From Anaerolineae bacterium (lineage in GTDB: Bacteria > Chloroflexota > Anaerolineae > Anaerolineales > Villigracilaceae): 39,382 nt of DNA. The stretch spans positions 1 to 39,382 of the forward strand of contig JABGQT010000078.1 in assembly GCA_018648685.1 (NCBI GenBank). Direction: 5' to 3'. Below, piece by piece: positions 32,717 through 38,498 of the stretch. Under the pieces are notes generated by a model that was given only the letters and a program-made list of their open reading frames with translations, did no database searches and was not told where the DNA came from. Numbering within the stretch: position 1 is the stretch's first letter; every line of letters begins with the position of its first letter. Both the position numbers and the translations under genes were made by a program.

Positions 32717-33397
32717 TTATGCAGAAAGGCTCTTTTCTTGTGCTGAGGCTTCGTTCACTTTTACGCTACTTAGCGCGGCATAGATGAACATTCCCAGCCC
32801 AACGGCGAAGAGAACTCCACCGCCGATCATCATTTGCGTGTGGAAGTGGTCTGCCAGATTAACTCCGTCAAAAATATGAGTAGGCCCTGCCCACATTTGG
32901 ACGCTAAGGAAAAGCATGCCCATGACGATGGCTGTCATACCGCCAGCAGCTGTTTTTCCATTGTCTCCGCCGTTTTCAAACCCGACCATTTGCTTGATCT
33001 TGGGAAAGCTGAATAGCAGGAAAATGATAAGAGTGAAAACTATGGCATAGACAATGAAATCGAGAGGCATAGATGAACCGCCCTCACGGAGAGCACGTGA
33101 AGTTGCCATATGGATGACACCAACGATCAGAGATGGGACTAGGACTATTAGAGAGTCGCGGTATGCATTTTCTTTGCCTCGAACCAGAGAGATGGTGGCA
33201 CGAACGCCCATAATACCAAGAGCAACAAAGGCAAGAACATAGAGAATGTAGAGCCATTGGAATTGTGCAATGGCTTCCATGCCTTCATATTGTGTAGCGT
33301 CGAGCGCGACGCAGGTCGTCCCAACGCCACTGAGGAGGATTAGTGCAGATGTTAGCCCCATAAAAAGGATGCCGATGAAGCGTAGGAATTTTCCCAT
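32717..33397 (-). CDS. Membrane protein with an HxH helix motif
   Basis: Unrecognised protein of 226 residues with about six hydrophobic helices. The last helix begins LADHFHTQMMIGGGVLFAVGLG, with H184 and H186 spaced as in the GHxHI motifs of the large neighbour protein. H96 and H174 (AGPTHIFDG) also lie next to predicted helices. The membrane-edge histidines suggest heme or metal binding, but this is inference. The gene has its own AAGGAG ribosome site and a strong terminator behind it. It is separated from the ctaB unit by another terminator, so it may be transcribed independently. Confidence 0.65.
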   Translation of the reverse strand: MGKFLRFIGILFMGLTSALILLSGVGTTCVALDATQYEGMEAIAQFQWLYILYVLAFVALGIMGVRATISLVRGKENAYRDSLIVLVPSLIVGVIHMATSRALREGGSSMPLDFIVYAIVFTLIIFLLFSFPKIKQMVGFENGGDNGKTAAGGMTAIVMGMLFLSVQMWAGPTHIFDGVNLADHFHTQMMIGGGVLFAVGLGMFIYAALSSVKVNEASAQEKSLSA

Positions 33398-33500
33398 TTT
33401 ATTCTCCTTGATTTTGTATTTGTTTGGTTAAAATGACATATTCATTGTACAGTATTGTGATAGCAAGCACGAATGACTTTTGTCTTAAAGGAGTAAAGAA

Positions 33501-33538
33501 AAAGCCTCCGAGATTTGATTGTAAATCTCGGAGGCTTT
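33501..33538 (-). terminator. Terminator of the ctaB unit
   Basis: AAAGCCTCCGAGATTT (33501-33516) and its exact complement (33523-33538) form a 16-bp stem with a six-base loop. A T run follows on the minus strand. Confidence 0.9.
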
Positions 33539-33559
33539 TAGAAACTAGGGGGAATCTTT

Positions 33560-34165
33560 CTATGCTGTTGCAAAGCCAAAAACGAAGGCGGCTGTCATCA
33601 GCAGGAGTAAGGCTGGGAGTACTGTTAGGATGGTGTCTTTTGACAGGATTGGCTTCCCCGATTTCAGGAAAGTGAGCAATAAGCCACCAACGCCGATCAG
33701 TGCACCGCCGATGCCGACCCATACAAATTCGTTTGGGGTTTTGCCCTGGATGCTGTAGATGATGGGAAGCAGGAAGATTATCATCCCCGAGACGCCGTGA
33801 ACAAGAGCTATAGGGATAAAGGCTAATTTGCTCGTCATTTTGTAGCGGGAATAGATGACAAGCAGAAAACCGATAATAACGAAAATAGTGTAGATATTGC
33901 CCCAGCTTGGGAGATATTCATACACAAGACCAAGCGAAAGGCTGAGAGGAATAATGGTGGAGATTATGACAACGAGGGGGCTGTCGAGGATGTCAAAGCC
34001 GAGAATGATGAGGAGCAGGCCTGCCACGAGCAATACGCCGAAGGATACCGTATATGCTGACATAGCGAGCGTTCCGGTTCCATCTATCCCAACAGCAATT
34101 TGGTAGGCGGCGAGTAATCCTGTAATGAGAAGGAGAATGCGGTCGAGGATTGAAATCTTTTTCAT
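33560..34165 (-). CDS. Multi-helix membrane protein, paralogue of the 37.9-kb gene
   Basis: Unrecognised protein of 201 residues with about seven helices. The opening RILLLITGLLAAYQ and the segments SFGVLLVAGLLLI, IIPLSLSLGLVYEY and WVGIGGALIGVGGLLLTFLKSG all have close counterparts in the protein encoded at 37866-38498. H123 in ALVHGVSGMII aligns with H125 (LFHSVAGLII) of that paralogue. A single conserved histidine inside a helix is consistent with a heme ligand but is not proof. The gene follows ctaB by 13 bases and shares its terminator. Confidence 0.7.
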   Translation of the reverse strand: MKKISILDRILLLITGLLAAYQIAVGIDGTGTLAMSAYTVSFGVLLVAGLLLIILGFDILDSPLVVIISTIIPLSLSLGLVYEYLPSWGNIYTIFVIIGFLLVIYSRYKMTSKLAFIPIALVHGVSGMIIFLLPIIYSIQGKTPNEFVWVGIGGALIGVGGLLLTFLKSGKPILSKDTILTVLPALLLLMTAAFVFGFATA

Positions 34166-34178
34166 AATGTTTTCTAAC

Positions 34179-35033
34179 CTAGAACATGAGTAAGATCATT
34201 GCGCTGAGCATATAGAGAGATGCATATTTGAAAAGGCCGAAATTGACGGTTTCAGAGGGTTTTATGATGCTGGCAATGGCTAGGGTCAGTAAGCCACCAG
34301 AGAGAACAGCCATGAGCCTTAGGAAGCCCCAATCTGTGCCGATACCATAGGCTGCGAGACCAATAATAATTGCAGCGAGAATGCTGGAGATAGCGATGGT
34401 GTTGCGGGTGAAATTGTCGCCATAAGTGGATGGGAAGGTAGGTACACCCGCGTTTTTGTAGTCTTCGCGATAGCGCATGGAGAAGGTCAGGATATGGGTG
34501 GGGATCCAGAAAAGGATGGCAAACATAAGGGCGATGCCGATCCAATCAATGGTTCCTATACCGAGGGCGCGACCTGCGAGGATGGGCATCCCGCCCGAGA
34601 TGCCGCCCCAAACGATAGACCAAGCGGTTTTGCGTTTAAGCCAAATGGTGTAGATGACAACATCAATGAAAAGGCCGCCAAAGATGATAAGGCCGTAGAG
34701 CGCATCCATTGCAACAGCAATTGCAACACCGATAATTGAAATAATAAGACCAAAGCGTAGGGCTTCAGTGGGATCAATTTTCCCTGAGGGAAGAGGGCGT
34801 TTTGCTGTGCGTGCCATTTTAGCGTCGATATCGCGGTCGTACCACATATTGAGAATTGTGCTGCCACTGATGGTCAGGAAGAGACTTAAGGCAAGCCCTA
34901 ACATAGTGGGGCGTGTGGTGACGGGACAACGGGCACTCATATAGCCAGCGAGACCAGTTACCATGAGTAAAGCTGTTTGCAGGCTTTTAATTAGAGGCCA
35001 ATAAAGGCGAAATTTGGATTTGATTTTGTTCAT
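34179..35033 (-). CDS. ctaB: Heme O synthase (protoheme IX farnesyltransferase)
   Basis: UbiA-superfamily membrane enzyme that farnesylates heme B to heme O, 284 residues and about eight to nine helices. The first diphosphate-binding motif LNMWYDRDIDAKMARTAKRP (61-80, N62, D66, D70) is diagnostic of CtaB/CyoE. The second region, WIPTHILTFSMRYREDYKNA (H180, D191), continues GVPTFP as in CtaB. No heme A synthase or recognised cytochrome oxidase subunit is in the window, yet several His-motif membrane proteins are. The gene shares an operon with the 201-residue protein. A terminator separates it from the SUMF1 gene upstream. Confidence 0.83.
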   Translation of the reverse strand: MNKIKSKFRLYWPLIKSLQTALLMVTGLAGYMSARCPVTTRPTMLGLALSLFLTISGSTILNMWYDRDIDAKMARTAKRPLPSGKIDPTEALRFGLIISIIGVAIAVAMDALYGLIIFGGLFIDVVIYTIWLKRKTAWSIVWGGISGGMPILAGRALGIGTIDWIGIALMFAILFWIPTHILTFSMRYREDYKNAGVPTFPSTYGDNFTRNTIAISSILAAIIIGLAAYGIGTDWGFLRLMAVLSGGLLTLAIASIIKPSETVNFGLFKYASLYMLSAMILLMF

Positions 35034-35124: not shown

Positions 35125-36078
35125 TTATTGTGCGCAGCGGAAGCCGATTTCTGGGGCGTAGTGCGTTGGTCCCGCGCTGTTGAATTTCCAGACACGGAGG
35201 TCAACTTCGTAGGTGTAGAAACTGCCACCGCGCATATGGCGATAGTGTTGGTCAGCGTGATCGTCGCCCATCCACTGCCAGACGTTGCCGCCCATGTCGT
35301 AAAGGCCGTAGGGGCTAACGCTGTCATGGGTTTCGTACCCTTCGTAGGTTTGACCATTGTAGAAACCGACCGGGGTGGTGTTGCCCAGCTTGCCATACAT
35401 CTTCTCAAAAAGATCAGCAGAAGAATAGTAATTGGCGTAATTACCGTGAATTTCTGTACCCCAGGCAAAGGGGCGGCCATGACCATTTTCTGTGATCTCT
35501 GTGCCACGAGCAGCCTTTTCCCATTCTACTTCGAGGGGTAGGCGGGTGTCGTAGTATTCACAATAGGCATTTGCACCGAACCAGGTAACCATTGTTACAG
35601 GGTGATTGCGGTAGGCATCCATTGTGGTGAAGATACCGTTCTCATAAGTCATGCGCAACCCATCTTCCATTGCAATGAAGAGTTGGTCGCCTTCTTCAAT
35701 CTCTTCTTCGTGCTTATAAGCATCAAAGGGATCGCCTTCGTAATAGCCGCCAGCACCTTCTTTTTGAAGGGTAAGTTCTTCTGCAACTTTGAGATCAAAT
35801 TCGCCAACGCTTATGTCACCAGATGCAATTGCTTCATTAAGGTAATTCGCATATTGTTCGACAGTGACATTCGTGATCATAATTTCGAATTCATCCACAT
35901 AAGTCACATGGTCATGTTGACCGAAAAGGAAATCGCCCGCGGGGACAGTTGCCCACGCTTCTGTATCAACGCCTGTATCAACATAGGGGAGATCGTTAAT
36001 TGCCCCAACATTAGGCGCTGGAGCGCAAGCTGTTGCCAGTAAGCCAATCAGGAGTAGGCTGAAGATCATTTTTTTCAT
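35125..36078 (-). CDS. SUMF1/FGE-sulfatase domain lipoprotein
   Basis: Exported lipoprotein of 317 residues with lipobox LATAC (C18). The body is a formylglycine-generating-enzyme-type (SUMF1) fold: TMVTWFGANAYCEYYDTRLPLEVEWEKAAR, then PYGLYDMGGNVWQWMGDD and HMRGGSFYT, ending SAGPTHYAPEIGFRCAQ. The two copper-binding cysteines of true FGE are not both apparent, so sulfatase activation is unlikely. SUMF1-type proteins also accompany respiratory enzymes, for example NirV next to copper nitrite reductase. Its start overlaps the stop of the large membrane protein as ATGA, so the two are coupled and probably work together at the outer face of the membrane. Confidence 0.85.
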   Translation of the reverse strand: MKKMIFSLLLIGLLATACAPAPNVGAINDLPYVDTGVDTEAWATVPAGDFLFGQHDHVTYVDEFEIMITNVTVEQYANYLNEAIASGDISVGEFDLKVAEELTLQKEGAGGYYEGDPFDAYKHEEEIEEGDQLFIAMEDGLRMTYENGIFTTMDAYRNHPVTMVTWFGANAYCEYYDTRLPLEVEWEKAARGTEITENGHGRPFAWGTEIHGNYANYYSSADLFEKMYGKLGNTTPVGFYNGQTYEGYETHDSVSPYGLYDMGGNVWQWMGDDHADQHYRHMRGGSFYTYEVDLRVWKFNSAGPTHYAPEIGFRCAQ

Positions 36079-37610
36079 TTGGACACCTCATCGAGGGTTG
36101 CCTGAATTTCGGCTAATTTTTGTTTTTGTGCTTCAAGGTCAGCTTTAGCATTGGCTTGTTTTTCTGCTGCGAACTCGTCGCTCCAAACGCCATCTTTTGC
36201 AAAGAGATCGATCAAACGCCAGCCCAAAAAGATTGCGAGCAAGACCAGTATCGCAGCCAAACCGAAATCCATGATGAGCATTGTGGTGTTGACCAAAGGC
36301 TGCTGTGCTGTATCGCTAACAAAGAGACGCTTCATCGAAAATACAGTCGCGGCACCAAAGGCAAGGTCAGAACCAATAATAATCGTCCAACCAGCCCATT
36401 TGCGAGCTTTTCCTTTGATACCAGAAAGATCCATGAAATAGAAGAGGATAATCGTGGCGATAATACCGGAAAGAATATGCCAATGTCCGGTTAAGGTGAT
36501 ACGTTCTTCACGATGGGGCCAAACACGGAAAATCTCTTCCAGTTTGATCGCCATGAAGATGCCCACACCGCTAACGGTGAAGTTCATGAAAACCATTTGC
36601 CAACCAGAGCCAAATTTGAAAGGATCGTCGGTCAGGGCTTTTATTTTTTGGAAGAAATTGGGTTTTTCAATATCAGCAGTGCCTTCTTTGATCAATTTAT
36701 CCCAAGAAAAAATCACATATAGCAAAGCGGAGAACATAACAAAGACAGAACCAACGTAAATGGTACTGTGTGCCCATTCCATCCAGACGATGGAAAGCGC
36801 GCCGAAGGTGATCGTGATCGTGCCGATGATCATAATAGGCATGGCCCATTTATGTAGTTTGCCTTTGAAGTCCATCCAGCGGCCAACGATCAAGGTAATC
36901 GCAACGGCGATCAGCGTGAGCATGATATGCAAGTGACCAATAATCGCTTTTTGCAGCGCGGTTTTGTGCGGTATACGGATAAGGTCTTCACCGAGGAAGG
37001 TTTCGTGTCCATTTGCCCAGAAAGAGCCTGTTACCGCGCCCCAAGTTGCGGAAACCAAGGTTGCAATTGCCATCACAAAGAAAGCAGCTCGCTCTATATT
37101 GACACCGTTTTTAGTACGCGCATAGGGAGAATCTTCCGGTAAAAGATATTCTTTTTTCCAGGGCCAGAGCGCAGCGACGAGCAGGATGCCTCCGAAGAAG
37201 ACAAGTGATTGCCCGACAAGGAACAAACCATGATAAGCGAAGTTATGCCCGAAATAGCCGAAGAATAAGCCAAAAATAATGGCAGTCAGATAACCGATGG
37301 TAATCGTAGCATTGATTATTACCTGTTCATGACGTTTCATTGGCAGTATTTCGGTCATGAAATAAACTTCAATGGCAACAACGGTCATTGCGATGGTGTG
37401 ATAGAGCATGATGATGCGACCTTCACGGTCTGCTTGCACCAAATCCATGCCGAGCACTTTGACGGTGATGTCTCGAACGCCCCACTCGACCATAGGTCCT
37501 GAGAGGGTACCCCAGATTGCTGTCACGATGCCGACTGCGGCAATCGCAACCAACGCCAGTCCCCGCGTGGAGCGGAAGAGGTAGTCGAAACGTTTTGCTA
37601 ATTCTTTCAT
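36075..37610 (-). CDS. Three-repeat polytopic membrane protein, heme-copper-oxidase-like
   Basis: Unrecognised 511-residue protein with about 12 helices. I start at ATG 37610, preceded by GGAG, instead of TTG 37631. Repeats 2 and 3 align without gaps for 40 residues (224-263 with 374-413, 16 identical): both open with GHxHI (H226/H228; H376/H378) and share KGKxxKWA and IIG. In repeat 1, H71 and G106 keep the same spacing. GHxHI at the start of a helix resembles helix X of heme-copper oxidases, where two histidines bind the hemes, and YFGHNFAYHG (H122, H127) faintly recalls their GHPxVY. The consecutive HH copper ligand is not found, so this is not a canonical oxidase. The C-terminus (482-511) is a coiled coil. 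Heme binding is inferred. The SUMF1 gene follows with a four-base overlap. Confidence 0.72.
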   Translation of the reverse strand: MKELAKRFDYLFRSTRGLALVAIAAVGIVTAIWGTLSGPMVEWGVRDITVKVLGMDLVQADREGRIIMLYHTIAMTVVAIEVYFMTEILPMKRHEQVIINATITIGYLTAIIFGLFFGYFGHNFAYHGLFLVGQSLVFFGGILLVAALWPWKKEYLLPEDSPYARTKNGVNIERAAFFVMAIATLVSATWGAVTGSFWANGHETFLGEDLIRIPHKTALQKAIIGHLHIMLTLIAVAITLIVGRWMDFKGKLHKWAMPIMIIGTITITFGALSIVWMEWAHSTIYVGSVFVMFSALLYVIFSWDKLIKEGTADIEKPNFFQKIKALTDDPFKFGSGWQMVFMNFTVSGVGIFMAIKLEEIFRVWPHREERITLTGHWHILSGIIATIILFYFMDLSGIKGKARKWAGWTIIIGSDLAFGAATVFSMKRLFVSDTAQQPLVNTTMLIMDFGLAAILVLLAIFLGWRLIDLFAKDGVWSDEFAAEKQANAKADLEAQKQKLAEIQATLDEVSK

Positions 37611-37682
37611 ATTGAGATTTCTCCGTTTCAAATGAGATTGATGGGATTATTATCCCTGAGATGGTCGCATGCCCAGTTTTTT

Positions 37683-37865: not shown

Positions 37866-38498
37866 TTAGTTTTTGATATCTTTCATGAAGCCCCATGCAA
37901 AAGCAAGAGCCATAAGAAGCAGGAGTGCGGCTAAGATAGCATTGACAACAGCACCGCTGAAGAATAATAATTGACTTCCTGCATTGAGAAATGCCAAAGC
38001 CATACCACCGGCACTGATCAGGACACCGCCAACGCTAACCCACCAAAAACCTTTGGCTGGGTTGCCTTCGCCGTATTTTTTAACAAGGAAGGGTCCTAAG
38101 ACGATAATCAATCCTGCAACGCTGTGGAAGAGGGGAACAGCAACAGCCTTGATATTTGAGCCTGTAAAAGCTGAAAAGGCAATTGCGAGCAGCCCGATTG
38201 TGGCAAACCAAATATAGGGTTTTGTATATTTGGCGAAGTATTGGCGTACCATACCAACAGAAAGACCAAAGGGGATTAAGCTGGCAACGGTCAATATGAA
38301 AGGTGTGGCAAGAATTTTATATTTCATGAAAATTAAGAGTACGCCAGAAACAAATAAAACAGCGAAACTCAAAATATAGTATAGGGCGTAGACTTTCTTT
38401 TCCCAGCTATAGCGTTGCCAAAAACGCCAAACCATATAAGCTGCTGTAAGCCCGGTTGCAAGTAGCAAAATAATATCAAGTACATTGGGACCATTCAT
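37866..38498 (-). CDS. Multi-helix membrane protein, paralogue of the 33.6-kb gene
   Basis: 210 residues with about seven helices; the function is unrecognised. It resembles the 201-residue protein at 33560-34165 along its whole length: LLLATGLTAAY, SFAVLFVSGVLLI, SLIPFGLSVGMVRQY and WVSVGGVLISAGGMALAFLNAG, with H125 matching H123. I chose ATG 38498 because AAGGAG lies ten bases before it; longer in-frame starts read through an AT-rich leader. It has its own terminator and lies upstream of the three-repeat protein gene. The 5' region carries a CRP/FNR-like site. Possibly a small heme-binding subunit, by inference only. Confidence 0.72.
   Translation of the reverse strand: MNGPNVLDIILLLATGLTAAYMVWRFWQRYSWEKKVYALYYILSFAVLFVSGVLLIFMKYKILATPFILTVASLIPFGLSVGMVRQYFAKYTKPYIWFATIGLLAIAFSAFTGSNIKAVAVPLFHSVAGLIIVLGPFLVKKYGEGNPAKGFWWVSVGGVLISAGGMALAFLNAGSQLLFFSGAVVNAILAALLLLMALAFAWGFMKDIKN

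Follow-up and report, generated by a model that had tools for sequence, protein, structure and literature searches.

A widespread family of histidine-rich membrane proteins with the predicted fold of heme-copper oxidase subunit I, encoded beside a heme O synthase

Within the window (the whole 39,382-nucleotide stretch of Anaerolineae DNA that was analysed), a gene encodes a large membrane protein that has no match in Pfam, NCBIfam or the sequences of the PDB, and no paper was found that names its family or operon. The initial annotation, made from the DNA letters and their translations, had proposed that this three-repeat, histidine-rich, 12-helix protein might be a relative of the heme-copper oxidases (HCOs). 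The locus raises two questions: whether the protein does belong with the HCOs, and what a member lacking the usual sequence hallmarks might do. The reading preferred here is that it is probably a heme-binding membrane oxidoreductase with the fold of HCO subunit I, from a family missed by current models, with nitric oxide (NO) as its likeliest substrate.

The gene and its neighbours are arranged as follows, from upstream to downstream:

37866 to 38498, reverse strand: second 7-TM protein of cluster c0 (210 residues), upstream of the HCO-fold gene
36075 to 37610, reverse strand: gene P0001 for the HCO-fold 12-TM protein (ATG start, 511 residues, no cysteine)
35125 to 36078, reverse strand: FGE/SUMF1-like lipoprotein (317 residues; PF03781, E 3.6e-34)
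34179 to 35033, reverse strand: heme O synthase, CtaB/CyoE (284 residues; TIGR01473, 227.4 bits against a cut-off of 210.3)
33560 to 34165, reverse strand: small 7-TM protein of cluster c0 (201 residues), a conserved neighbour with one invariant histidine
33500 to 33539, reverse strand: strong terminator-like hairpin that closes the four-gene operon
32717 to 33397, reverse strand: membrane protein c6 (226 residues), a frequent neighbour of family loci

An alternative TTG start for the HCO-fold gene is possible at 37631, and its other end overlaps the FGE-like gene by 4 nucleotides. The order HCO-fold gene, FGE-like lipoprotein, heme O synthase and 7-TM protein recurs across phyla; among relatives, the FGE-like gene almost always comes directly after the HCO-fold gene (75 copies beside 78 anchors), and most loci have a heme O synthase gene adjoining the family gene. 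The second c0 gene is followed by a hairpin with a T-run, and is therefore probably a separate transcript. The operon proteins examined contain no c-heme motif. The lipoprotein lacks the catalytic cysteine pair of the formylglycine-generating enzyme, though its SUMF1 domain is present; of its three cysteines, one lies at the lipobox and one in a GFRC motif, and C296 is the only one that is invariant across relatives. Its HE and NH motifs are invariant, and an insertion precedes the NHP motif. The 7-TM c0 proteins, which flank the HCO-fold gene on both sides, have no Pfam match; a confident model of the 7-TM partner (pLDDT 94.8) yields rhodopsin- and GPCR-like matches, but their Z scores of 12 to 14 are no more than a shared arrangement of helices would give, and such an identity was rejected.

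The affinity of the protein emerges from its predicted structure. An AlphaFold2 model built with 58 relatives (pLDDT 81.7, pTM 0.86, with the loops preceding helices VI and X below 50) has the 12-TM fold and threefold pseudo-symmetry of the HCO superfamily, and it bears an HxH on helix X and a histidine on helix II, the register of the latter (H71) being ambiguous by two residues. By VIA-align it matches CcoN, the catalytic subunit of the cbb3-type (C-family) HCOs, with a Z score of 23.3 over 402 residues (3.8 A, 8% identity), and also cNOR (Z 20.4) and COX1 (about 20), scores that far exceed the background level stated for bundles of helices. The top Foldseek matches are likewise HCO subunit I chains (probability 1.00, TM about 0.5 to 0.6, E around 0.002 to 0.1; for the ba3 oxidase, TM 0.59 at probability 1.00), and the PDB matches with a probability near 1 are chains of the HCO superfamily. 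The proposal of an HCO relative thus gains support from the structure prediction that had been suggested as its check. Profile methods give no such signal: the family has no PF00115 match and no profile similarity to HCO groups, no PF05940 (NnrS) match at E 10, and hhalign probabilities under 3 against COX1, CcoN, NOR and NnrS-like sets (0.7 for the last), whereas known HCO groups score 97 to 99 among themselves and NnrS-like proteins score 92 against CcoN. The diversity of the family profile is low, and this probably limits the hhalign result.

Internal repetition is visible in the sequence itself, most clearly between two segments:

36822 to 36941, reverse strand: repeat 2, residues 224 to 263, matching repeat 3 without gaps
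36372 to 36491, reverse strand: repeat 3, residues 374 to 413, matching repeat 2 without gaps

The 16 identities over 40 gap-free residues that had been noted between these segments were reproduced; they form the best 40-residue pair in the protein, and none of 500 class-preserving shuffles reached this value (mean best pair 10.7, maximum 14). Sub-alignments of repeats 2 and 3 are matched by hhalign with a probability of 87 (E 4e-6, 95 columns). Repeat 1, which hhalign missed, was recovered by ungapped profile scans at mutually consistent offsets: 157 for helices I and V, 156 for II and VI, 305 or 307 for II and X (scoring alike, at 13.2 and 12.2), 150 for VI and X, and 154 for IV and VIII. 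The offset-150 diagonal beats every shuffled profile and the remaining ones lie weakly above or near the null, so that the other equivalences between arcs rest on the mutual consistency of their offsets. The retention in repeat 1 of H71 and of a 35-residue spacing to a glycine (G106), as in repeats 2 and 3, also holds. The accompanying statement that sequence does not normally reveal the repeats of HCOs holds for the sets of A-type COX1 and NOR that were tested, but not for CcoN, in which the threefold repeat is clearer than in the present protein (offsets 140, 145 and 285). This CcoN repeat, seen in the CcoN set and in L160, a related-family genome with a cbb3-type sequence, helps to fix the equivalence of ligands between arcs.

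Seven of the 13 histidines, among 65 of 511 positions overall, are invariant over 60 sequences with identities down to 36%:

37398 to 37400, reverse strand: H71, helix II; candidate low-spin heme ligand by fold, register ambiguous
37230 to 37232, reverse strand: H127, start of helix IV; beyond the HCO set, pseudo-symmetric to H281
36927 to 36935, reverse strand: H226-L227-H228, helix VI; invariant HxH
36768 to 36770, reverse strand: H281, start of helix VIII; A280-H281 at the position of the HCO histidine pair
36477 to 36485, reverse strand: H376-W377-H378, helix X; invariant HxH, as on helix X of HCOs

Two divergent members from the wider Chloroflexota (36 to 37% identity) retain all seven but lose three that the main group commonly has (H122, H202 and H253), and this allows likely ligands to be told apart from features of a lineage. 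The conservation of H226/H228 and H376/H378 on which the earlier reading hinged is without exception, and H71 stands with them; that reading overlooked H127 and H281. It was right that no copper-ligating HH pair exists, since the position reads AH in all members. Its suggestion of a ‘degenerate’ member does not fit a protein with seven invariant histidines and a heme O synthase in its operon. Helices VI and VII of the window protein contain no tyrosine that could serve as the cross-link residue, and Y285 on helix VIII is replaced by asparagine in the divergent members.

A map of ligands was drawn from the fold, the order of residues and pseudo-symmetry. The order H71, H226/H228, H281 and H376/H378 was set beside that of the cbb3-type sequence from L160 (H60, H207, H257/H258 and H345/H347); ungapped placement of this family's helices on CcoN was uninformative. 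On this map, H376 and H378 of helix X, together with H71, are very likely the ligands of two hemes, arranged as in HCOs and including one or more molecules of heme O. The CcoN repeats (offsets 285 and 140) equate the helix-II histidine with the first helix-X histidine and the helix-VI CuB histidine with the second, and applying these equivalences places H228 on the CuB side and H226 toward a third pore, between helices VI and II. For H228 and H281 the judgement is evenly poised: they would lie on the open side of the high-spin heme and may hold there a two-histidine non-heme metal, or none. H127 corresponds on helix IV to H281 (offset 154; both read H-x5-G), and the same rotation assigns it to the third pore. 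By this reasoning H226 and H127 would both map to a pore that contains no cofactor in known HCOs; that they line it and might hold a further cofactor is a doubtful proposal, and a protein with cofactors in all three pores is similarly speculative. Because helix II fits either offset (305 or 307) equally well, H71 may itself point into either of two pores, the low-spin one or the third. If all three pores were occupied, the family would represent a three-centre relative of the HCOs, with new gas-reducing chemistry or a position near a symmetric ancestor.

Subunit I of the HCOs and NO reductases (NORs) is defined by six conserved histidines, including the helix-VI histidine and the HH pair before helix VIII that bind CuB or FeB (PMC3084760). 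Helix VI of the present protein offers H226 and H228, but the pair reads A280-H281 in all members; with this departure from the six-histidine definition, the family should be kept out of the HCO and NOR classes, even though the protein most likely works like one. CcoN, the best structural match, shares with it the predicted 12-TM fold, the HxH on helix X, the histidines on helices II and VI, and a threefold repeat visible in sequence; it differs in that the family is only 8% identical, has no PF00115 match, has AH for HH, possesses extra histidines on helices IV and VI, and lacks c-type cytochrome partners while its operon bears a heme O synthase. The NORs (cNOR, qNOR, gNOR and others) have the same predicted fold and likewise no cross-link tyrosine, and NO-related genes lie by the divergent family members; unlike NORs, the family has no HH pair, no glutamate on helix VI four residues past the histidine, no NorC homologue seen and no sequence match. 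The nearest concept is that of the HCO homology (HCOH) proteins, including NnrS, which also have 12 TM helices in three four-helix units, fall outside PF00115 and have been proposed to handle NO. The 12-TM HCOH families described by Pei and colleagues in 2014 (a study cited in PMC4602095) reportedly keep mostly two histidines; as compared by description, the present family differs in its seven invariant histidines and its heme O synthase.

The heme O synthase provides the best, if indirect, pointer to a protein that carries heme O. In 16 genomes without a PF00115 HCO, a strong TIGR01473 match sits with the family operon, its location having been checked in the five with numbered contigs (G002, G014, G026, G048 and G055); G254, another of the 16, has two strong matches, and the other TIGR01473 matches in such genomes are far weaker proteins of the UbiA family. 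G026, which is 99% complete, illustrates the point: its strong heme O synthase belongs to the operon and it has no PF00115 match. Where a genome has no catalogued HCO, its sole strong heme O synthase is usually that of the family operon. The window's own genome encodes two, one beside a canonical HCO on another contig (C3) and one in the operon.

At least 281 family loci occur in bacterial genomes. The best 80 of these carry labels from the Chloroflexota, Calditrichota, Neomarinimicrobiota, Ignavibacteria/Chlorobiota, Bacteroidales, Aminicenantes, Deltaproteobacteria, KSB1 and Spirochaetales, the taxon labels being approximate because nearly all labelled loci come from metagenome bins. The carriers are largely anaerobes, and of 60 genomes related to that of the window, 27 have the family; no viral relatives were found in IMG/VR. 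Two loci (L106, 340 to 1845, and L089, 841 to 2325) encode members with an in-frame stop or split reading frame, which may be pseudogenes or assembly errors.

What, then, might the protein do? It probably binds heme and uses it to break down or respire a small gas that is reactive, for example NO. In the mechanism envisaged, electrons would probably come from quinol or a membrane partner, since the operon proteins have no c-heme motif, and NO would be the most likely substrate; on the periplasmic face, the FGE-like lipoprotein would serve as a cap or as an assembly factor. The more specific proposal, that NO is reduced or scavenged on the periplasmic side in hosts that mostly lack flavodiiron protein and Hcp, falls a little short of probable. 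The NO-related neighbours were seen at two divergent loci only: one member (L186) adjoins a flavodiiron protein and a DUF438/hemerythrin/PAS protein, and the other (L185) adjoins a NOR-like HCO with aspartate for the helix-VI CuB histidine and without the A-type tyrosine, as well as an apparent NDH-2 identified by eye. That HCO (L185, 7319 to 8944) is a PF00115 protein in which the motif reads WWGLDMVADGN. The same replacement by aspartate is reported for gNOR.

Among the 60 relatives, NrfA, a possible source of NO, was found in 14 of 27 carriers and 8 of 33 non-carriers (p 0.034, or 0.009 without the window's own genus, uncorrected for five tests and for phylogeny); it was not found in the window's own genome. 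NosZ, flavodiiron protein, cytochrome bd and canonical HCO showed no significant association with the family. NosZ as a denitrification partner was set aside, as real NosZ occurs in four of the 60 (one of 27 carriers against three of 33 non-carriers), and so was a link to Hcp, which occurs in none. Regulators of the Crp/Fnr or TetR type adjoin many family loci, and of 106 upstream regions, 12 contain a TTGW-N6-WCAA site (3.8 expected); no Fnr-like palindrome lies upstream of the window's family gene. The HcpR-like palindrome TTGACCNNGGTCAA was rejected as a general signal, with one perfect site (L062) and a slight excess only. At that locus the perfect palindrome TTGACCTTGGTCAA lies at -73 from the family gene, a promoter-like distance; a few other loci have similar sites, and the window has none.

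Two alternative functions are each unlikely, to about the same degree. The first is an O2 reductase or scavenger, driven by quinol or a membrane partner and using heme O in the manner of bo3-type enzymes. A farnesylated heme is typical of O2-reducing HCOs, the operon encodes a heme O synthase, and the carriers, being largely anaerobes, need defence against O2; but just one histidine of the HH pair is retained, the operon contains no c-heme protein, the family shows no association with the presence or absence of other HCOs, and the conserved tyrosine on helix VI or VII that marks O2 reductases (PMC3084760) is missing. The absence of this tyrosine and of the pair argues against a standard O2 reductase.

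The second is a non-catalytic heme sensor, or a carrier of heme or NO, of the NnrS/HCOH kind, from which partners, for instance the 7-TM proteins, would receive a signal or heme. Proteins of 12 TM helices that are homologous to HCOs yet stand outside them, NnrS among them, are said by Pei and colleagues (in 2014) to have few ligands and no known turnover, and NnrS-like genes lie near three family loci; against this, the invariance of seven histidines points to at least two cofactors, and a dedicated heme O synthase would be unusual for a sensor. The NnrS-like proteins in question (L032, 4907 to 6127, and others at L052 and L058) have 12 TM helices and weak matches to both PF05940 and PF00115. 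An unrelated 12-helix bundle, HCO-like in arrangement only, would agree with the lack of profile similarity to HCOs and is very improbable, given a Z score of 23 over 402 of 511 residues, near-certain Foldseek matches that are all to HCO-superfamily chains, the HxH at the helix-X position and the linkage to heme O synthase.

The reading of an NO-handling heme oxidoreductase bears on how respiration is counted. Aerobic respiration and a large part of NO reduction are defined by the HCOs, and censuses of these enzymes rely on PF00115-type models and on the six histidines. A strongly conserved and widespread family escapes these filters and occurs, with a heme O synthase, in anaerobes that have no catalogued HCO. 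Such a family would change which organisms are credited with the capacity to respire NO or O2 or to detoxify them, would offer a new point of comparison for the origin of the threefold HCO fold, and poses a concrete question: is the third pore occupied?
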